Shown in pieces: positions 5,338 through 25,664 of a stretch of DNA of 27,266 bases. A model generated the notes under the pieces. The model had not been told where the DNA came from. It ran no database searches and worked only from the letters and a program-made list of their open reading frames with translations. Where the stretch lies: the IMG/VR virus record IMGVR_UViG_3300046000_007061, positions 1 through 27,266 of that record. The stretch is one strand, 5' to 3'. Made by a program: the position numbers and the translations under genes. Origin of the DNA: a virus. The stretch's first letter is position 1. Each line of letters starts with the position of its first letter.

Positions 5338-5369
5338 TTTGGCTCCCATAAGGAGCCTTTTTATATTTA
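5338..5369 (+). promoter_or_regulatory. Bacteroidota-type promoter overlapping a terminator
   Basis: TTTG (5338-5341), exactly 20 bases, then TATATTTA (5362-5369). The same spacing is found at eight other sites in the window. It should start transcription of the polymerase gene (ATG 5386). The spacer holds the terminator hairpin of the upstream operon. Confidence 0.7.
5341..5362 (+). terminator. Intrinsic terminator closing the structural block
   Basis: GGCTCC (5341-5346) pairs with GGAGCC (5352-5357) around a CATAA loop, followed by five T (5358-5362). The hairpin occupies most of the spacer of the promoter at 5338-5369. Confidence 0.85.
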
Positions 5370-5385
5370 AATAAATAAAGGTTAT

Positions 5386-6720
5386 ATGTCATTTTATATA
5401 GTAGAAACTCAAGAACAGTTATTACAACTCTCACAACAAGAAAGTTGTTACATTAATGTAATCCCACTATCATCTAACTACCACCCAGTATTAACTGAAA
5501 TATCATTAATTTACTATAAACCAAAACATGGTAAGGGATTAGTATTCACTATAAACCATAGTGAGGGGTTTTATTTAAGTTTAGATAAAATAAAAGAATT
5601 TATTTTAAGTCATAAAGTAATTTACGTTTTAGATAAAAAAACTATTTCTCATTTAATAGGGGAAGAATTCTTACAAAGTAAAGTACAAGATATTAATTTA
5701 TTGTCACTGCATGCCTCCCATATCACTCCGTATATACAAGATTGTGAAACAAGTATACACACTCATTTCCAAAGACTTTATAAAGACAAACCTTATTTAA
5801 ACTCTATTATCCCTATTTGTAAACACTATGAGACTCAAGAAAAAATTTATAATGCAGTACAAGAATGGGTAGAAAAACAGCACGAAATCAGCTATTATAA
5901 CGAAGAATATATTGAGGTGTTCTACCGCATTGAAAAACAAGGGATTGCGTTAAATATGCCGGTTTTTAATGAAAGTTTTAATTTAAGTAATCCTAATTTT
6001 AATATAAAGGATGATAAAATTTATACACAATTCAATCTAAATAATTTTACTTCTCGCCCTTCAAATTCATTTAATGGAATAAATTTTGCAGCCCTAAATA
6101 AAAACAATGGACAACGAGCATCTTTTATACCTCAAAATGATTATTTATTTGAATTTGATTACGATTCGTATCATCCACGTATTTTAGCAAAATTGATAGA
6201 GTATGAATTTGAGGAAGAATCTGTTCATGCTCATTTAGGGCAAATGTATTTTAAAACCGACATTTTAACAGAAGAGCAATATTCACAATCTAAGGAATTG
6301 ACATTTAAACAATTATATGGAGGGGTATTTGAACAATATAAAAATATTCCATATTTTGCTAAAATTATTCAATATACTGATAAAATATATAAAGATTTTA
6401 ATTCCCTGGGATATATAGAATTAATAGGGGGGAGAAAATTATATAATATAGAAAATGCAACCCCTCAAAAACTATTAAACTACATCATACAATCAGGAGA
6501 AACTTTTTATAATGTAAATTCTATAAAGAAAGTATTAGAATATTTGAAGAATAAAAAAAGTAATATTATATTATATACCTACGATAGTATTTTAATAGAT
6601 TATAATAACGAGGATGGGAAAAAAACGCTAAAAGATATTAAGAATATATTAGAAAGTAGTTTTGGATTTAAAATAAATGCTAGTTATGGAACAGATTACA
6701 ATAATTTAACAAAAATATAA
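5386..6720 (+). CDS. Miniature family A (Pol I-type) DNA polymerase
   Basis: A 444-residue protein with Pol I landmarks in order: TSRPSNSFNGINF (222-234; R224 matches Pol I R668), motif A FDYDSYHPRILA (D258 is the catalytic Asp), motif B SKELTFKQLYGG (K303, F307 and Y311 match K758, F762 and Y766), IIQSGE (Q369 matches Q849) and motif C TYDSILID (D400 is the catalytic Asp). Residues 1-150 align in order with a 3'-5' exonuclease domain, but the D-x-E of Exo I is replaced (around VIPLSSNYHP), so proofreading is probably lost. The thumb is reduced to about 20 residues between RIEKQGIALN and the TSR segment. E710 (steric gate) is His263, R754 is Tyr299, and HDE of motif C is YDS. No other polymerase is visible in the window; role in phage replication is inferred. 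Confidence 0.8.
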   Translation: MSFYIVETQEQLLQLSQQESCYINVIPLSSNYHPVLTEISLIYYKPKHGKGLVFTINHSEGFYLSLDKIKEFILSHKVIYVLDKKTISHLIGEEFLQSKVQDINLLSLHASHITPYIQDCETSIHTHFQRLYKDKPYLNSIIPICKHYETQEKIYNAVQEWVEKQHEISYYNEEYIEVFYRIEKQGIALNMPVFNESFNLSNPNFNIKDDKIYTQFNLNNFTSRPSNSFNGINFAALNKNNGQRASFIPQNDYLFEFDYDSYHPRILAKLIEYEFEEESVHAHLGQMYFKTDILTEEQYSQSKELTFKQLYGGVFEQYKNIPYFAKIIQYTDKIYKDFNSLGYIELIGGRKLYNIENATPQKLLNYIIQSGETFYNVNSIKKVLEYLKNKKSNIILYTYDSILIDYNNEDGKKTLKDIKNILESSFGFKINASYGTDYNNLTKI

Positions 6721-7946: not shown

Positions 7947-7978
7947 TTTGGCTTCCTCAAGAAGCCTTATTATATTTA
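7947..7978 (+). promoter_or_regulatory. Bacteroidota-type promoter overlapping a terminator (gene 32)
   Basis: TTTG (7947-7950), 20 bases, TATATTTA (7971-7978). Transcription would start about 35 bases before the gene 32 ATG at 8020 and probably covers the replication genes. Confidence 0.7.
7950..7970 (+). terminator. Intrinsic terminator before gene 32
   Basis: GGCTTC (7950-7955) pairs with GAAGCC (7961-7966), loop CTCAA, followed by a T-rich stretch (TTAT). The hairpin fills the spacer of the promoter at 7947-7978. Confidence 0.75.
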
Positions 7979-8019: not shown

Positions 8020-8865
8020 ATGAATTTAGACTTGATTCAAAACAAGCTTAATGAATTATCGGCTCCTAAAACTGGAGGTCAGAAAAACAACGATAAAGCT
8101 TTAAGCTTTTGGAAACCCACAGTTGGGAAAGCCTTAGTAAGGTTTGTACCCTCAAAATTTAACCAAGAAAACCCATTTAGAGAATTGTATTTTCATTATG
8201 GTATTGGTAAAAGAACAATTATTTCACCTTCAAACTTTGGTGAAAAAGATCCAATTATCGAATTTTCTAAAGAACTTCGTAAAACTAAAGAACCTGAAAA
8301 CTGGAAACTAGCTAAAAAACTTGAACCCAAAATGAGAGTTTTCGCACCTGTTATTATTAGAGGTGAAGAAGAAAAAGGAGTTCGTCTTTGGGAATTTGGT
8401 AAAGAAGTTTATCAATCATTATTATCATTAGCCGCTGATGAAGATATTGGAGACTTTACAGATGTAATGGAAGGTAGAGATATGAAAGTTGAAACAGTAG
8501 GTCCTGAAACCACAGGAACTGATTATAATAAATCACGTATTATGCCTGCTCTAAAAACTTCACAGTTAAGTAATGATAACGATGAATTAACTAAATGGTT
8601 AGAAACACAACCAGATCCAACTTCATTTTCTAAAAAATATACTTTTGATGAAATTAAACAATTTCTAGCTGAATGGTTAAATCCTGAAGAAGAAGCTAAA
8701 GAAGAAGGAAGTATTATGGATGGGCCAGCTACAGATTTCGGATCAGCCCCTTCAGTTAAATCCAAATTTGAATTAGATACTACTAAACCCGTTGCAAATA
8801 AAGCATTTGCTCCTAAAAAAGAAATTCCAACAGCAGACGAGTTTGACGACTTGTTTAAAGAATAA
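8020..8865 (+). CDS. 32: Single-stranded DNA-binding protein, gp32-like
   Basis: A 281-residue protein with gp32 features: a short basic N-terminal arm, the core opening FWKPTVGKALVRFVPSK, then PFRELYFHYGIG, MRVFAPVIIRGEEEKGVRLWEFGKEVY, and an acidic C-terminal tail ending ADEFDDLFKE. In T4, gp32 coats single-stranded DNA in replication and recombination and its acidic tail docks partners such as UvsX, helicase and primase. The T4 zinc site (one His, three Cys) is missing: this protein has no Cys at all, and the place is taken by IISPSNFGEKDPIIEF. It starts after AAAAAGTT-ATG, directly behind a strong promoter, with uvsX 8 bases downstream. Confidence 0.88.
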   Translation: MNLDLIQNKLNELSAPKTGGQKNNDKALSFWKPTVGKALVRFVPSKFNQENPFRELYFHYGIGKRTIISPSNFGEKDPIIEFSKELRKTKEPENWKLAKKLEPKMRVFAPVIIRGEEEKGVRLWEFGKEVYQSLLSLAADEDIGDFTDVMEGRDMKVETVGPETTGTDYNKSRIMPALKTSQLSNDNDELTKWLETQPDPTSFSKKYTFDEIKQFLAEWLNPEEEAKEEGSIMDGPATDFGSAPSVKSKFELDTTKPVANKAFAPKKEIPTADEFDDLFKE

Positions 8866-12354: not shown

Positions 12355-12357
12355 TAA

Positions 12358-12365
12358 TATTTATA
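12358..12365 (+). promoter_or_regulatory. TATTTATA motif upstream of the reductase gene
   Basis: Second copy of the octamer, within TAATATTTATAG, in the 58-base gap before the ribonucleotide reductase. The context TAATATTTATAG also occurs before the holin gene (14503-14513). Confidence 0.2.
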
Positions 12366-14502: not shown

Positions 14503-14504
14503 AA

Positions 14505-14512
14505 TATTTATA
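14505..14512 (+). promoter_or_regulatory. TATTTATA motif upstream of the lysis cassette
   Basis: Third copy of the octamer, just behind the terminator and 24 bases before the holin-like gene. A late promoter here would fit the timing of lysis genes. Confidence 0.25.
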
Positions 14513-17072: not shown

Positions 17073-17104
17073 TTTGGCTTCCTAAGGGAGCCTTATTATA
17101 TTTA
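17073..17104 (+). promoter_or_regulatory. Bacteroidota-type promoter overlapping a terminator (dpdA)
   Basis: TTTG (17073-17076), 20 bases, TATATTTA (17097-17104), 21 bases before the ATG of the DpdA-like gene. Confidence 0.7.
17076..17094 (+). terminator. Intrinsic terminator after the lysis cassette
   Basis: GGCTTCC (17076-17082) pairs with GGGAGCC (17086-17092; one T-G pair), loop TAA, followed by a T-rich stretch. The hairpin fills the spacer of the promoter at 17073-17104. Confidence 0.7.
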
Positions 17105-17125: not shown

Positions 17126-17911
17126 ATGAAAATTTCACATGAATTACCTTTAAGTCTATTAGAACATAGTTTAGACTGGAACCATTATGACTATTGTCTT
17201 CCCATATTTATGGATAAATATCCTGAATATAGGCAATATTTTTTAGATCAAAGAGAACGAGATCGTTTTATAATAATGGATAATTCTTTATTTGAGGGTT
17301 ATTCCCACACAACTCAAGATCTACTCGAAAAAATCGATTTAATTAAACCTGATATCTTTATTGTTCCTGATGAATGGAATGATTCAATACTTACGGTTAA
17401 AAACGCTAAACATTGGCTTCAATACAAGATGCCGATGCGTACTAAATTAATGGTAGTATTGCAAGGAAAAACCGTAAGTGATATACATTTACTATATCAA
17501 CAATGTGTTGATTTAGGTTATACTCATTTTGCTTTTAATCATTCTTCTGTTGTTTACCAAGAATTAGGAGGATCTGAAAATATTTTAGCTAATCAATCTG
17601 TTGGTAGAGTATTATTAATTCAATATTTACTATCACAAAATGTAATTAAAGAACACCATTATATTCATTTATTAGGAGCATCGACTCCTCAAGAATTCAC
17701 ATTTTATAGAGATGCTTTACCAACATTAATCAATTCAGTTGATACTTCAAATCCTATTATTTGTGGTGCTTTAGGTATTAGATATACTGAAACAGGTTTA
17801 TTAGAAAAGCCTAAAGAAAAGATTGAAGAATTTATGGAAAAAGATTTGGATTCTAAATTAGAAGATATTATATTTAATGTAAATAAATTTAAAGAATTTT
17901 GTAATAAATGA
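17126..17911 (+). CDS. dpdA: DpdA-like 7-deazaguanine DNA transglycosylase (TGT fold)
   Basis: A 261-residue TIM-barrel protein of tRNA-guanine transglycosylase type. Landmarks: FIIMDNSLFEG (48-58, in the place of the TGT D-S-G-G segment), IVPDEW (79-84), MVVLQGKT (109-116, like the VQG strand), HLLGAS (181-186) and SVDTSNP (204-210), where an Asp provides catalysis in TGT-like enzymes. DpdA enzymes exchange guanine in DNA for a 7-deazaguanine such as preQ0, hiding phage DNA from restriction enzymes. The queC gene about 430 bases downstream supplies this base, which strongly supports DNA rather than tRNA modification. The zinc site of bacterial TGT is absent, as is common for DpdA. The start follows AAGTT-ATG behind its own promoter. 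Confidence 0.65.
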   Translation: MKISHELPLSLLEHSLDWNHYDYCLPIFMDKYPEYRQYFLDQRERDRFIIMDNSLFEGYSHTTQDLLEKIDLIKPDIFIVPDEWNDSILTVKNAKHWLQYKMPMRTKLMVVLQGKTVSDIHLLYQQCVDLGYTHFAFNHSSVVYQELGGSENILANQSVGRVLLIQYLLSQNVIKEHHYIHLLGASTPQEFTFYRDALPTLINSVDTSNPIICGALGIRYTETGLLEKPKEKIEEFMEKDLDSKLEDIIFNVNKFKEFCNK

Positions 17912-19260: not shown

Positions 19261-19499
19261 TGGGAATGTACAGAAAGAAGCAAGTTGTAATTGAAGCAGT
19301 TCAATGGGATGGAAATACTGAACCAATGTTAGATTTTTGCAAAAGTGCTGAATTTAGAGATGGAGAATTATACATTCAAACCTTAGAAGGGCAGATGCAT
19401 GCTTCCAAAGGTGACTTCATTATAAAAGGAGTACAAGGAGAATTTTATCCATGCAAACCAGATATTTTTGAAAAAACTTACGAAGAAGTTTGGGATTAA
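19260..19499 (+). CDS. Small conserved phage protein of the 'VIEAVQW' type
   Basis: A 79-residue protein with a well-known phage pattern: RKKQVVIEAVQWDG near the start, LEGQMHASKGDFIIKGVQGEFYP in the middle and CKPDIFEKTYEEV at the end. Proteins of this type are widespread in phages and prophages and have no established role; the GD-x-I-I-x-G core suggests a small beta fold. Its ATG uses the last A of the queC stop codon, so the two are co-translated. A promoter begins inside its last codons. Confidence 0.75.
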   Translation: MGMYRKKQVVIEAVQWDGNTEPMLDFCKSAEFRDGELYIQTLEGQMHASKGDFIIKGVQGEFYPCKPDIFEKTYEEVWD

Positions 19500-19520
19500 C
19501 AAAAAAATTTCGTATATTTA
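19489..19520 (+). promoter_or_regulatory. Bacteroidota-type promoter before the lipoprotein gene
   Basis: TTTG (19489-19492, inside the end of the previous gene), 20 bases, TATATTTA (19513-19520), then AAGTATT. It would drive the lipoprotein gene and the RNA region behind it. Confidence 0.75.
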
Positions 19521-19722: not shown

Positions 19723-19930
19723 AACACCTCCCAGTAGATAGGTCCGCCAAGAAAGTCTTTAAACAACGTGGGAACTGCGGCTCTCCCAATGTGGCTGGAA
19801 TGTTTTATCAAAATTACCAATGCTCGCTGTTAATTGATGATGGTGCTAAACGGATGAAAAAGGGTTAATAGTAATCTAGAGTACAAGCAAATCATCAATC
19901 AGTAACCCCGAAAGACACAGGTTGGTAAAA
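19723..19930 (+). ncRNA. Structured RNA candidate A (pseudoknot domain)
   Basis: This 200-base stretch has no sensible reading frame but strong base-pairing. TTACCAA (19814-19820) pairs with TTGGTAA (19922-19928) and closes a domain in which ATTGATGAT (19833-19841) pairs perfectly with ATCATCAAT (19891-19899), while GGGTTA (19862-19867) pairs with TAACCC (19903-19908). The last two helices cross, forming a pseudoknot. Upstream, TGGGA (19769-19773) pairs with TCCCA (19784-19788), and GCCA (19746-19749) with TGGC (19792-19795). I do not recognise the RNA family; it is not a tmRNA. It would be transcribed from the promoter at 19489 and ends next to the tRNA-like element. Confidence 0.55.
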
Positions 19931-19933
19931 AAG

Positions 19934-20005
19934 AATCGATTGGTGTAACAAGGTAACACCGTGGAATATGTTCACGAGTTGAGAGTTCGAATCTCTCATC
20001 GATTC
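19934..20005 (+). tRNA. tRNA-like element, anticodon uncertain
   Basis: A cloverleaf can be drawn: acceptor AATCGAT (19934-19940) with ATCGATT (19998-20004), D arm GTGT/ACAC with a GG-bearing loop (19943-19959), anticodon stem CGTGG/TCACG (19960-19976), T arm GAGAG-TTCGAAT-CTCTC (19981-19997). G19933 could pair with C20005, as in tRNA-His. The anticodon loop AATATGT lacks the invariant U at position 33; at the standard offset the anticodon would be UAU (Ile), but this is doubtful. It may be a degenerate tRNA or a mimic. Confidence 0.5.
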
Positions 20006-20046
20006 CAAATTTAAACTACTGTTCTTTGACATAAAACTTATAAAAA

Positions 20047-20999: not shown

Positions 21000-21031
21000 T
21001 TTGGCTATTAGAAAGAAAGTTCGTATATTTA
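21000..21031 (+). promoter_or_regulatory. Promoter dedicated to a non-coding RNA/tRNA unit
   Basis: TTTG (21000-21003), 20 bases, TATATTTA (21024-21031), then AGTATAAG. No convincing coding region follows for 330 bases; the transcript would contain RNA B, tRNA-Ser and RNA C. Confidence 0.75.
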
Positions 21032-21140: not shown

Positions 21141-21225
21141 GGAGAAATGGCAGAGTGGTCGATTGCGGCAGTCTTGAAAACTGTTGTACTGAAAGGTACC
21201 GGGGGTTCGAATCCCTCTTTCTCCG
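21141..21225 (+). tRNA. tRNA-Ser(UGA)
   Basis: Complete cloverleaf with a long variable arm: acceptor GGAGAAA (21141-21147) with TTTCTCC (21218-21224), discriminator G, D loop with AGAGTGGTCGA, anticodon arm GCAGT-CTTGAAA-ACTGT giving anticodon TGA, variable arm GTACTGAAAGGTACC, T arm with GGTTCGAATCC. The 3' CCA is not encoded (GCAG follows). UCA codons are frequent in this AT-rich genome. Confidence 0.93.
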
Positions 21226-21228
21226 CAG

Positions 21229-21600: not shown

Positions 21601-21619
21601 AAAAATATTTGGAGAAAGG

Positions 21620-21651
21620 TTTGGATATCTGGATCTTTCTTCGTATATTAA
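21620..21651 (+). promoter_or_regulatory. Bacteroidota-type promoter
   Basis: TTTG (21620-21623), 20 bases, TATATTAA (21644-21651), 15 bases before the ATG at 21667. The last two bases of the -7 box differ from the other copies. Confidence 0.65.
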
Positions 21652-21666
21652 ATAAAAATAAAAGTT

Positions 21667-21897
21667 ATGACAACACGAGAATTAGAGTTAAGTGGAGATT
21701 TAGCAAACTACAACAATGCTAAAGAAGCTATTGTCGATGCATTGGTAAGAGAAGATTTTCTTACTGAAGCACAAGCAGAAACAATTAAAACAAGGTATGC
21801 AGTTGTATTAGTCCAAGGTAATTGGTTTGGTCAAGCAATAGGTAAGTTATTAAACAAAAAAGACGTTCAATATATAAAATTAGTAAAAATAGTATAG
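21667..21897 (+). CDS. Small protein of unknown function
   Basis: A 76-residue protein starting after AAAAGTT-ATG, behind its own promoter. It reads MTTRELELSGDLANYNNAKE, then a helical AIVDALVREDFLTEAQAETIKTR and VVLVQGNWFGQAIGKLLNKK. No membrane segment. The next gene starts two bases after its stop with the leader ATAGTT-ATG, so the two form an operon. I do not recognise it. Confidence 0.6.
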   Translation: MTTRELELSGDLANYNNAKEAIVDALVREDFLTEAQAETIKTRYAVVLVQGNWFGQAIGKLLNKKDVQYIKLVKIV

Positions 21898-22811: not shown

Positions 22812-23135
22812 TTTGGTACCAAAGGGCTAAGCACAAGCCGATGCCCTAAGGTTTTATGCTGGGATTTGTAGAGTCTTAAAAAAACATATAAGATATATTG
22901 ATGTCTAATCAACTACAAACATACGTGGCCCTGTGCCATCTATAAACTCGCTTCCCTACAACTTAAACCAAAACTGAGATAGAACTCAACAGCTAGACAT
23001 GTTACTCCGCCAGAGGAGATTAAAAGTGGCTAGCGATTCTAAGACTGAGTTTTTGTCCTTGCCCTTGTGGTAGTGGAAGGTTTTTGACTTTGATTTTGCA
23101 TTTGACCTAGTCTATATGCTTTACATCCCAGCAAC
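22812..23135 (+). ncRNA. Structured RNA candidate D (about 320 bases)
   Basis: This gene-free stretch begins with a perfect palindrome TTTGGTACCAAA (22812-22823) and a hairpin AGGGC (22823-22827) with GCCCT (22843-22847). GCTGGGAT (22858-22865) pairs with ATCCCAGC (23125-23132), closing a domain of about 275 bases. Inside, TGGC-CCTGT-GCCA (22926-22938) forms a hairpin, and a three-tier stem is made by AACTCA (22983-22988) with TGAGTT (23046-23051), GCTAG (22992-22996) with CTAGC (23030-23034), and CTCC/GGAG (23005-23018). No frame over 60 codons is convincing here. Family not recognised. Confidence 0.45.
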
Positions 23136-23140
23136 ATATT

Positions 23141-23148
23141 TATTTATA
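23141..23148 (+). promoter_or_regulatory. TATTTATA motif before the gene at 23157
   Basis: Fourth intergenic copy of the octamer, 8 bases before the ATG. At this distance it cannot be the -7 region for a leader of usual length, so it may be chance or part of an A/T-rich leader. Confidence 0.12.
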
Positions 23149-23156
23149 AAATACTC

Positions 23157-23690: not shown

Positions 23691-23695
23691 TATAG

Positions 23696-23911
23696 AAATT
23701 TAACACCTCGATGGTTGTCTGTAACCAACGATTGTTCGAAAGGACTATGAAACAGAATAGGCGTGTTGATAGTGGTAAACCTCACCAATTGTAACCGATT
23801 AAGTTCAAAGGAAGATAAGGACTAGTACGCCTGTGACAAACACGATGAATTCAGGATTTCCCATAGTAGCCCCGTTACAAACCAGAGTGCAGCAGAGGTG
23901 TTAAATTTTTT
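23696..23911 (+). ncRNA. Structured RNA candidate E with a 14-bp closing stem
   Basis: The ends form a perfect 14-base-pair stem: 23696-23709 (AAATTTAACACCTC) with 23895-23908 (GAGGTGTTAAATTT), followed by T bases that could act as a terminator. Inside, TGGTT (23712-23716) pairs with AACCA (23723-23727); AGGCGT (23759-23764) pairs with ACGCCT (23827-23832); and TTGTAAC (23789-23795) pairs with GTTACAA (23874-23880), crossing the previous helix and giving a pseudoknot. No reading frame spans it. About 213 bases long and not assigned to a known family. Confidence 0.65.
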
Positions 23912-23923
23912 AAAAATAATTAC

Positions 23924-23952
23924 AAAAAGGCTTGCTTACGCAGGCTTTTTTT
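23924..23952 (+). terminator. Intrinsic terminator before the gene at 23986
   Basis: AAAAAG (23924-23929) pairs with CTTTTT (23945-23950), with a bulged G, and CTTGC (23931-23935) with GCAGG (23940-23944) around TTAC; seven T follow the stem core. It overlaps the promoter at 23931-23962. Confidence 0.7.
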
Positions 23953-23962
23953 CGTATATTTA
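23931..23962 (+). promoter_or_regulatory. Bacteroidota-type promoter overlapping a terminator
   Basis: CTTG (23931-23934), 20 bases, TATATTTA (23955-23962), then GATATAAA. It drives the gene at 23986 and the RNA ligase. Confidence 0.7.
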
Positions 23963-23985: not shown

Positions 23986-24291
23986 ATGAAACAAAACGAA
24001 GAACAAATCTTATGTGCTGCAATATGGTTACAAGAAGCTGAAAGAGCAGCTCACAGACCTATCAACACACCAGGTGGAGTTGTTATTAGTGGTTTTAGAC
24101 ATGGTCATTGTATTTCTTCTATAGTATCCCTTACAGGTAAGAGGTTGCATGAACATGGAGAACATATACAGGGGTTTCTAACTAACAAGAATAGATTTGT
24201 TGATAGAGAAGAAGGTGCTCAAATTTGGATTAAAAATGGAGGTTTTTTAAATTATAGCTCAATAGAACTATACTCAGAAGATTTATACTAA
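23986..24291 (+). CDS. Conserved phage protein with 'GFRH' and 'GFLT..NRFV' motifs
   Basis: A 101-residue protein starting after AAAGGTT-ATG. An upstream in-frame ATG at 23932 lies inside the promoter/terminator and cannot be used. It reads ILCAAIWLQEAERAAHRP, VVISGFRHGHCISSI, then IQGFLTNKNRFVDREEGAQIW and ends ELYSEDLY. This 'AAIW...G.RH..C......GFLT..NRFVDR.E' pattern is common in phages and some bacterial genomes and has no assigned function; the conserved His, Cys and Arg could form a binding site. It is 11 bases upstream of the RNA ligase gene. Confidence 0.75.
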   Translation: MKQNEEQILCAAIWLQEAERAAHRPINTPGGVVISGFRHGHCISSIVSLTGKRLHEHGEHIQGFLTNKNRFVDREEGAQIWIKNGGFLNYSSIELYSEDLY

Positions 24292-25427: not shown

Positions 25428-25437
25428 AATACTTAAG

Positions 25438-25465
25438 AAAAGGCTTGTTTACTTAAGTCTTTTTT
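25438..25465 (+). terminator. Intrinsic terminator after the RNA ligase gene
   Basis: AAAAGGCTT (25438-25446) pairs with AAGTCTTTT (25455-25463; one G-T pair) around an 8-base loop, followed by T. It overlaps the promoter at 25444-25475. Confidence 0.7.
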
Positions 25466-25475
25466 CGTATATTTA
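25444..25475 (+). promoter_or_regulatory. Bacteroidota-type promoter overlapping a terminator
   Basis: CTTG (25444-25447), 20 bases, TATATTTA (25468-25475), then AGTATT. It lies 18 bases before the small gene at 25494. Confidence 0.7.
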
Positions 25476-25493: not shown

Positions 25494-25664
25494 ATGAGAG
25501 GTAAAAGAATTTATTGTGAAGATACTTCACCAACCCTAAAATCCATTCGTTTACATAAAAATCATGGTAAAATCGTGACTATAAACAATAAGCAGTATGA
25601 GTGTATAGGAGGGGATTTACTTTTTAATACCACAACAAATCGTATAGAAAAGTTACCAGTTTAA
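25494..25664 (+). CDS. Very small protein of unknown function
   Basis: A 56-residue frame, ATG 25494 to TAA 25662-25664, with the standard leader AAAAGTT-ATG and its own promoter. It reads MRGKRIYCEDTSPTLKSIRL, then HKNHGKIVTINNKQYECIGG and ends with RIEKLPV. The alternating strands suggest a small beta barrel, and two Cys are present. Not recognised; a dedicated promoter and terminator pair support that it is a real early gene. Confidence 0.65.
   Translation: MRGKRIYCEDTSPTLKSIRLHKNHGKIVTINNKQYECIGGDLLFNTTTNRIEKLPV

Follow-up and report, generated by a model that had tools for sequence, protein, structure and literature searches.

Candidate intrinsic terminators nested in the promoters of downstream genes recur in large phages of Flavobacteria and their relatives

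In the open-access PMC literature, isolated overlaps between a terminator and a following control region are described, and no recurrent device in which a hairpin lies inside a promoter was found. As far as the case is recounted in PMC6045580 (after Grundstrom and Jaurin 1982), the terminator at frd-ampC of E. coli overlaps the control region of the next gene. Bacterial RNA polymerase often remains on the DNA after intrinsic termination and restarts nearby, with values of 37%, and 55% with added sigma, in vitro (PMC6978380). It has been suggested that terminators and promoters lie close together as an adaptation for polymerase restart; the proximity is discussed there for bacteria, with little benefit expected for lytic phages that have their own polymerase (PMC11347151). 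The primary-sigma promoter of Bacteroidota comprises a -33 box TTTG and a -7 box TAnnTTTG (PMC7366714, PMC9723704).

The DNA analysed here (the window) is a stretch of 27,266 nucleotides from IMG/VR record IMGVR_UViG_3300046000_007061. Comparison with related genomes makes it likely that an intrinsic terminator superimposed on the next promoter is a recurrent device of phages whose genes lie on one strand. The window is part of a large tailed phage and is kin to Immutovirus immuto (MW353175; host Flavobacterium sp. LMO8), with 54% identity between the RecA-like recombinases of the two phages and a common gene order of DNA polymerase A, gp32-type ssDNA-binding protein, recombinase, 5'-3' exonuclease, helicase, ribonucleotide reductase and, further along, QueC. 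The G+C content is 30%, and nearly all long genes of the relatives G001 (173 kb) and G012 (168 kb) follow a one-strand layout. The phage group that carries the composite elements consists of large viruses of Flavobacteria and their relatives.

The DNA polymerase is seemingly split, with a polymerase-domain gene at 5386-6720 in the window and a distant exonuclease-subunit gene at L167:10706-11491 in G001; the latter lies inside the G001 structural half and is also preceded by a composite of the spacer-filling form described below. Three long non-coding stretches of the window (19723-19930, 22812-23156 and 23692-23920) are richer in G+C, with DNA conserved at about 70-97% among relatives, and are candidate structured phage RNAs; an Rfam search of them returned no match apart from a tRNA elsewhere. 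ARAGORN placed a tRNA-Ile at 19934-20006 and a tRNA-Ser at 21141-21226.

Promoters and overlapping hairpins in the window

The pattern TTTG-N20-TATATTTA occurs six times on the + strand of the window and never on the - strand, the reversed-pattern control gave no occurrence, and a looser N17-23 form has seven occurrences versus 0.59 in shuffles. Eight TTG-N20 sites of the window are intergenic and two lie inside genes. Across 158 related loci, TTTG precedes TATATTT(A/G) at a spacing of exactly 20 in 162 instances, compared with at most 17 at other spacings and five at spacing 20 on the reverse strand, and the forward/reverse counts of TTG-N20-TATATT in two whole relatives are 39/3 and 39/4. 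Given this sharp maximum at a spacing of 20, confined to the coding strand, TTTG-N20-TATATTTA is judged to be a real promoter pattern, and the distance of 20 bases between the boxes in the original prediction is confirmed. The pattern agrees with that of Bacteroidota in its -33 box and its spacing; in the -7 box, TAnnTTT is kept and the final G is mostly A.

The promoter elements of the window, with the hairpins that overlap them, are as follows.

5338 to 5341, + strand: -33 box TTTG of composite 1, before the DNA polymerase A-type gene 5386-6720, which it is predicted to drive
5341 to 5357, + strand: hairpin GGCTCC-CATAA-GGAGCC of composite 1, spacer-filling, register S50 (-11 kcal/mol, z -2.85; covariation)
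directly after hairpin 5341-5357, + strand: candidate U-tract TTTTTATATTT of composite 1
5362 to 5369, + strand: -7 box TATATTTA of composite 1
7947 to 7978, + strand: composite 2, with TTTG, hairpin 7950-7966 and TATATTTA at 7971-7978, before the gp32-type ssDNA-binding protein gene 8020-8865
17073 to 17104, + strand: composite 3, with TTTG, hairpin 17076-17092 (one U.G pair) and TATATTTA at 17097-17104
21611 to 21651, + strand: composite 4, with a 14-pair hairpin 21611-21642 and TTTG 21620-21623 in its 5' arm (register S41)
21644 to 21651, + strand: -7 box TATATTAA of composite 4; downstream gene 21667-21897
23924 to 23962, + strand: composite 5, with hairpin 23924-23951, CTTG 23931-23934 in its 5' arm and a TTTTTTT tract
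23955 to 23962, + strand: -7 box TATATTTA of composite 5; downstream gene 23986-24291
25436 to 25475, + strand: composite 6, the weakest (two G-C pairs), with hairpin 25436-25465, CTTG 25444-25447 in its 5' arm and a T-tract
25468 to 25475, + strand: -7 box TATATTTA of composite 6; downstream gene 25494-25664
19489 to 19520, + strand: promoter pattern with no G+C hairpin (internal comparison)
21000 to 21031, + strand: promoter pattern (TTTGGCT...) with no hairpin, z +0.26 (internal comparison)

A G+C hairpin overlaps six of the eight intergenic promoters, filling the spacer in three and enclosing the -33 box within the stem in three; each of these six hairpins precedes the -7 box. Folding and covariation both indicate that a stable G+C stem-loop is present in the sense RNA. 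The folding energies range from -8.6 to -11 kcal/mol for the spacer-filling three and from -10.5 to -15 for the other three, and the two hairpin-free intergenic promoters have z-scores of -1.38 and +0.26. Composite 3 has the lysis cassette upstream and the gene 17126-17911 (phrog_19058, function unknown) downstream. A further copy of the promoter pattern, at 17845-17876, lies within the 3'-terminal part of that gene and is conserved in relatives, which may reflect nothing more than coding constraint.

The letters and coordinates at 5338-5369, 7947-7978 and 17073-17104 proved correct on re-checking, but the stem-loop does not coincide with the 20 spacer bases, as had been supposed: it measures 17 nt (e.g. 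5341-5357), starts at the final base (G) of the -33 box, with four spacer bases left over. The shifted forms at 23931-23962 and 25444-25475 stand in their coordinates, with CTTG as the -33 box, and represent a second fixed register rather than a variant of the first form. Five composites had been counted; the sixth, at 21611-21651, was missed, and the hairpin at 25444, with two G-C pairs, falls below the strict threshold defined below and, as a single weak case, might be due to chance.

A second motif, ATATTTATA, is found at 12357-12365 and 14504-14512 of the window. It lacks a -33 box, is often found about 13-18 bases behind a terminator, and shows a strand bias of 29/3, 35/5, 31/3 and 29/2 in whole G001, G012, G006 and G032. 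The motif is enriched in the structural half of G001 and TTG-N20-TATATT in the other half, and ATATTTATA is probably a late promoter.

Registers of the hairpin, its distribution, and its gain and loss

A hairpin was called strict when it had at least three G-C pairs, and the null was formed by dinucleotide shuffles of the same promoters. Strict hairpins overlap five of the eight intergenic promoters of the window (0.20 in shuffles), and 12 of 32, 10 of 34 and 10 of 25 promoters in G001, G012 and G006 (0.94, 0.56 and 0.81 in shuffles, respectively). The hairpin-bearing share of promoters in whole relatives is about 30-40%, compared with about 2-3% in shuffles, and at a looser threshold 8 of the 34 intergenic promoters of immuto have an overlapping hairpin. 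The proposed comparison of spacers with shuffled sequence is thus positive in whole related genomes and in the cultured relative.

The hairpin centres of 415 distinct sites cluster in two registers, S41 with 37 and S50 with 29 distinct hairpins, and every other register holds at most eight; S41 copies share flanks and may be duplicates, so the within-genome counts are not fully independent. In S50, the spacer-filling form, a 17-base hairpin is opened by the last G of TTTG and ends four bases before the -7 box. In S41, the TTG-in-stem form, TTG sits at the top of the 5' arm of a stem of 8-15 pairs; stem lengths overall are 5-15 pairs. Hairpins also occur beside 350 intergenic TATATT boxes that have no -33 box, with no preferred register (one each at 41 and 50). 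Two registers that use the -33 box, and none preferred beside boxes without it, indicate that the hairpin is registered to the -33 box, and so the composite would arise through recruitment of the -33 box into the stem. At L172:9812 (G001 129813), the spacer hairpin GGAGTCTCGAAAGAGACTCC fills the promoter spacer exactly, has no T-tract behind it and does not resemble a terminator.

The recurrence of the composite is borne out in the window, in whole relatives and in other viral contigs. A search of IMG/VR for TTTGGCT-N9-AGCC with TATATTT no more than 14 bases behind it yielded 72 distinct cases; 67 of them have the promoter gap of 4, and in many the flanks are unrelated. A TTG-in-stem scan of the same collection gave matches with a T-run, the only informative ones, at gap 9-10, and a gap-8 peak that largely reflects repeated copies of a single sequence similar to a coding region. 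Among the matches listed, only about 2% of 107 distinct TTTGGC-N18-TATATTTA sites in IMG/VR have the matching GCC; the device is therefore not a property of all such promoters, and its general use by viruses is rejected. A host-like device is likewise rejected: in 397 Flavobacteriaceae genomes the spacer-filling pattern had six matches versus four for the reversed control, which is not beyond chance, and the TTG-in-stem pattern none, and a scan of 84,980 species showed no gap peak (2/33), all with tight patterns that fix part of the stem next to TAnnTTTG and would miss host versions with other stems.

The hairpin label changes at least four times on the polA protein tree and at least three times on the gp32 tree, and the promoter stays. 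INDEPENDENCE of two parts is seen in both directions: in L015, L021, L024 and L026 the stem persists and the -33 box has decayed (TTAG/CTAG), and in L169 and L038 the promoter persists with no hairpin. Repeated loss of the hairpin at the gp32 junction, with the promoter kept, implies that the promoter can do without it at this site. Judged by these comparisons, the hairpin is optional at gp32 and nearly always present at the late-to-early boundary. This is consistent with a terminator that is called for wherever late transcription has to end, and it speaks against the promoter depending on the hairpin for its function. Phage N4 exemplifies promoters that are single-stranded hairpins; a promoter of that kind is rejected here, because the hairpin is dispensable while the -33 and -7 boxes stay.

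The independent loss of either half is what would be expected if termination were real and the overlap merely saved space, with no functional consequence of its own. This is a serious alternative with a nearly even chance of being the whole account of the overlap, and it is compatible with, rather than exclusive of, a terminator superimposed on the next promoter. Other terminators in the same genomes are likewise followed closely by promoter-like boxes, as such packing would predict. Against it, the hairpins hold two fixed positions relative to the -33 box and are spread over registers beside boxes that lack it, and the junction before the polymerase gene has been refilled in immuto with a different register, an S41 composite located just before that gene at the end of the linear record.

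Pairing, termination and the remaining explanations

Covariation was analysed in 43 distinct elements, taken from promoters upstream of orthologues of three window genes and chosen by promoter, not by hairpin. The S50 stem has 81% standard pairs versus 69% when shuffled, and 44 both-side changes versus 14.4 +/- 3.4 in shuffles. Its covariation score of 0.446 compares with 0.234 +/- 0.018 and was reached by 0 of 500 shuffles; slid registers, which score at most 0.24, are the stronger control, since relatedness stays in the shuffles. Across orthologous junctions, both boxes and their 20-base distance are retained and the stem diverges through compensatory substitutions and G.U pairs, which points to selection on a + strand RNA hairpin and bears out the original prediction that boxes and spacing are kept while the hairpin sequence varies. 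The non-Watson-Crick cells of S41 comprise 46 G.U and 5 A.C (17 and 4 outside the -33 box), an excess expected of a + strand RNA hairpin and not of a DNA dyad, although the fixed 5' arm and transition bias partly confound it and both weaken the inference.

This bears on the proposal that the spacer dyad is an operator, bound by a dimeric phage regulator with no terminator involved, which is quite unlikely. The position between the -33 and -7 boxes is a classic operator place, the registers are fixed, a dyad with no U-tract exists (G001 129813) and the U-tract of the spacer-filling class is weak. Nevertheless, the half-site letters are not conserved between copies, and as they vary widely the pairing is kept by double changes: L009 and L010 have near-identical flanks, and the stem GGCTTCC...GGAAGCC of the one is GGATACC...GTATCT in the other (GGATAC facing GTATCT). 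The TTG-in-stem class, moreover, tolerates G.U while A.C is rare and has U-runs that accompany the hairpin, and stems of 5-15 pairs also speak against an operator.

Support for termination from the U-tract is strong for the TTG-in-stem form and modest for the spacer-filling form. A run of at least five T precedes the -7 box in 15 of 20 S41 promoters versus 11 of 87 with no hairpin. The S50 tail is T-rich (8.1 T in 12 versus 6.7 in hairpin-free promoters), its U-tract is broken by the -7 box (TTAT-TATATTT), and some IMG/VR copies have ATCT or TTCG at the tail position. The hairpins sit just past the stop codons of upstream genes. By comparison with immuto, the polA junction is the boundary of tail and replication genes, and its hairpin is kept in 18 of 23 relatives; the 17073 junction comes after the lysis cassette, and the stem is present in all 11 orthologous promoters found directly there. 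Taken from these sequence features, it is likely that S41 hairpins terminate transcription, and somewhat less likely that S50 hairpins do so.

The same + strand covariation would be expected if the hairpins protected or processed the 3' ends of the upstream mRNAs and did not stop the polymerase, and the weak U-tracts of the spacer-filling class would suit this role. The long U-runs right behind the TTG-in-stem hairpins and the placement of hairpins at unit ends, just ahead of a new promoter, make it improbable. Chance origin of the set in A+T-rich DNA (30% G+C, with a -7 box that is T-rich by itself) is refuted, with next to no probability left to it, by 5-12 hairpins per genome versus 0.2-0.9 in shuffles, by orthologous conservation with covariation and by the lack of a preferred register beside boxes without -33.

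Proposed working of the element and comparison with known systems

According to the terminator-in-promoter reading, each element would be a primary-sigma promoter as known from Bacteroidota (TTTG or CTTG, 20 bases, TATATTTA), and its upstream half would in addition specify a terminator hairpin that forms in RNA read from the upstream genes. The -33 box would be shared, with its last G opening the 5' arm in the spacer-filling form or its TTG topping the 5' arm in the TTG-in-stem form, and the T-rich stretch before and inside the -7 box would take the role of the U-tract. In a one-strand genome of about 170 kb, read-through from the preceding unit, notably from tail and lysis genes, would be stopped where replication and early genes restart, and the promoter would be protected from it. 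Host RNA polymerase would presumably be used. A terminating polymerase would come to rest with its active site within the -7 box or immediately ahead of it, and its footprint would thus cover the promoter of the next unit; a polymerase already bound at that promoter would obstruct one that arrives from upstream. These overlapping footprints are proposed to cause physical exclusion between terminating and initiating polymerases. It is unlikely, if conceivable, that the element serves a hand-over, in which a polymerase whose active site lies over the -7 box at termination remains DNA-bound, recruits sigma and initiates again from the overlapping promoter, the next unit being fed by, or exclusive with, the previous one.

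The element could be a compact stop/start switch. If the hairpins terminate, one element of 32 to 40 bases would be both stop and start signal, repeated across a one-strand genome; it would offer natural, sequence-varied and cultured material (Flavobacterium phage immuto) on in vivo polymerase restart at a neighbouring promoter, and a practical rule for the annotation of transcription units in Bacteroidota phages.

Compared with the Bacteroidota primary-sigma promoter, the phage pattern shares the TTTG/TTG upstream box, the TA..TTT downstream box, the 20-base spacing and the site before genes. It differs in the usual final A of the -7 box (TATATTTA), where the host has G, in a -33 box that is far better kept than in host promoters, and in a spacer that carries a hairpin. 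The hairpins resemble intrinsic terminators in their short G+C stem, loop of 3-6 bases, T-rich tail and position at the ends of gene blocks. By contrast, the phage 5' arm overlaps the -33 box, the tail overlaps or abuts the -7 box, and an A breaks up the tail of the spacer-filling class.

The frd-ampC case is alike in that one stretch ends the upstream operon and belongs to the next control region; in the account given in PMC6045580, however, the last frd gene contains the ampC promoter, and the terminator follows that promoter as an attenuator. The phage hairpin lies inside the promoter, ahead of the start point, and there are many instances of the device. Relative to the open-access PMC literature, which holds isolated overlaps, the recurrence and the fixed alignment of a putative terminator hairpin nested in a promoter are new. 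As in the proximity and polymerase recycling discussed for bacteria (PMC6978380, PMC11347151), the putative terminator adjoins a downstream promoter at which a released polymerase can reinitiate; the distance in the phage elements is zero or negative, and the composite would represent the extreme case of this arrangement.
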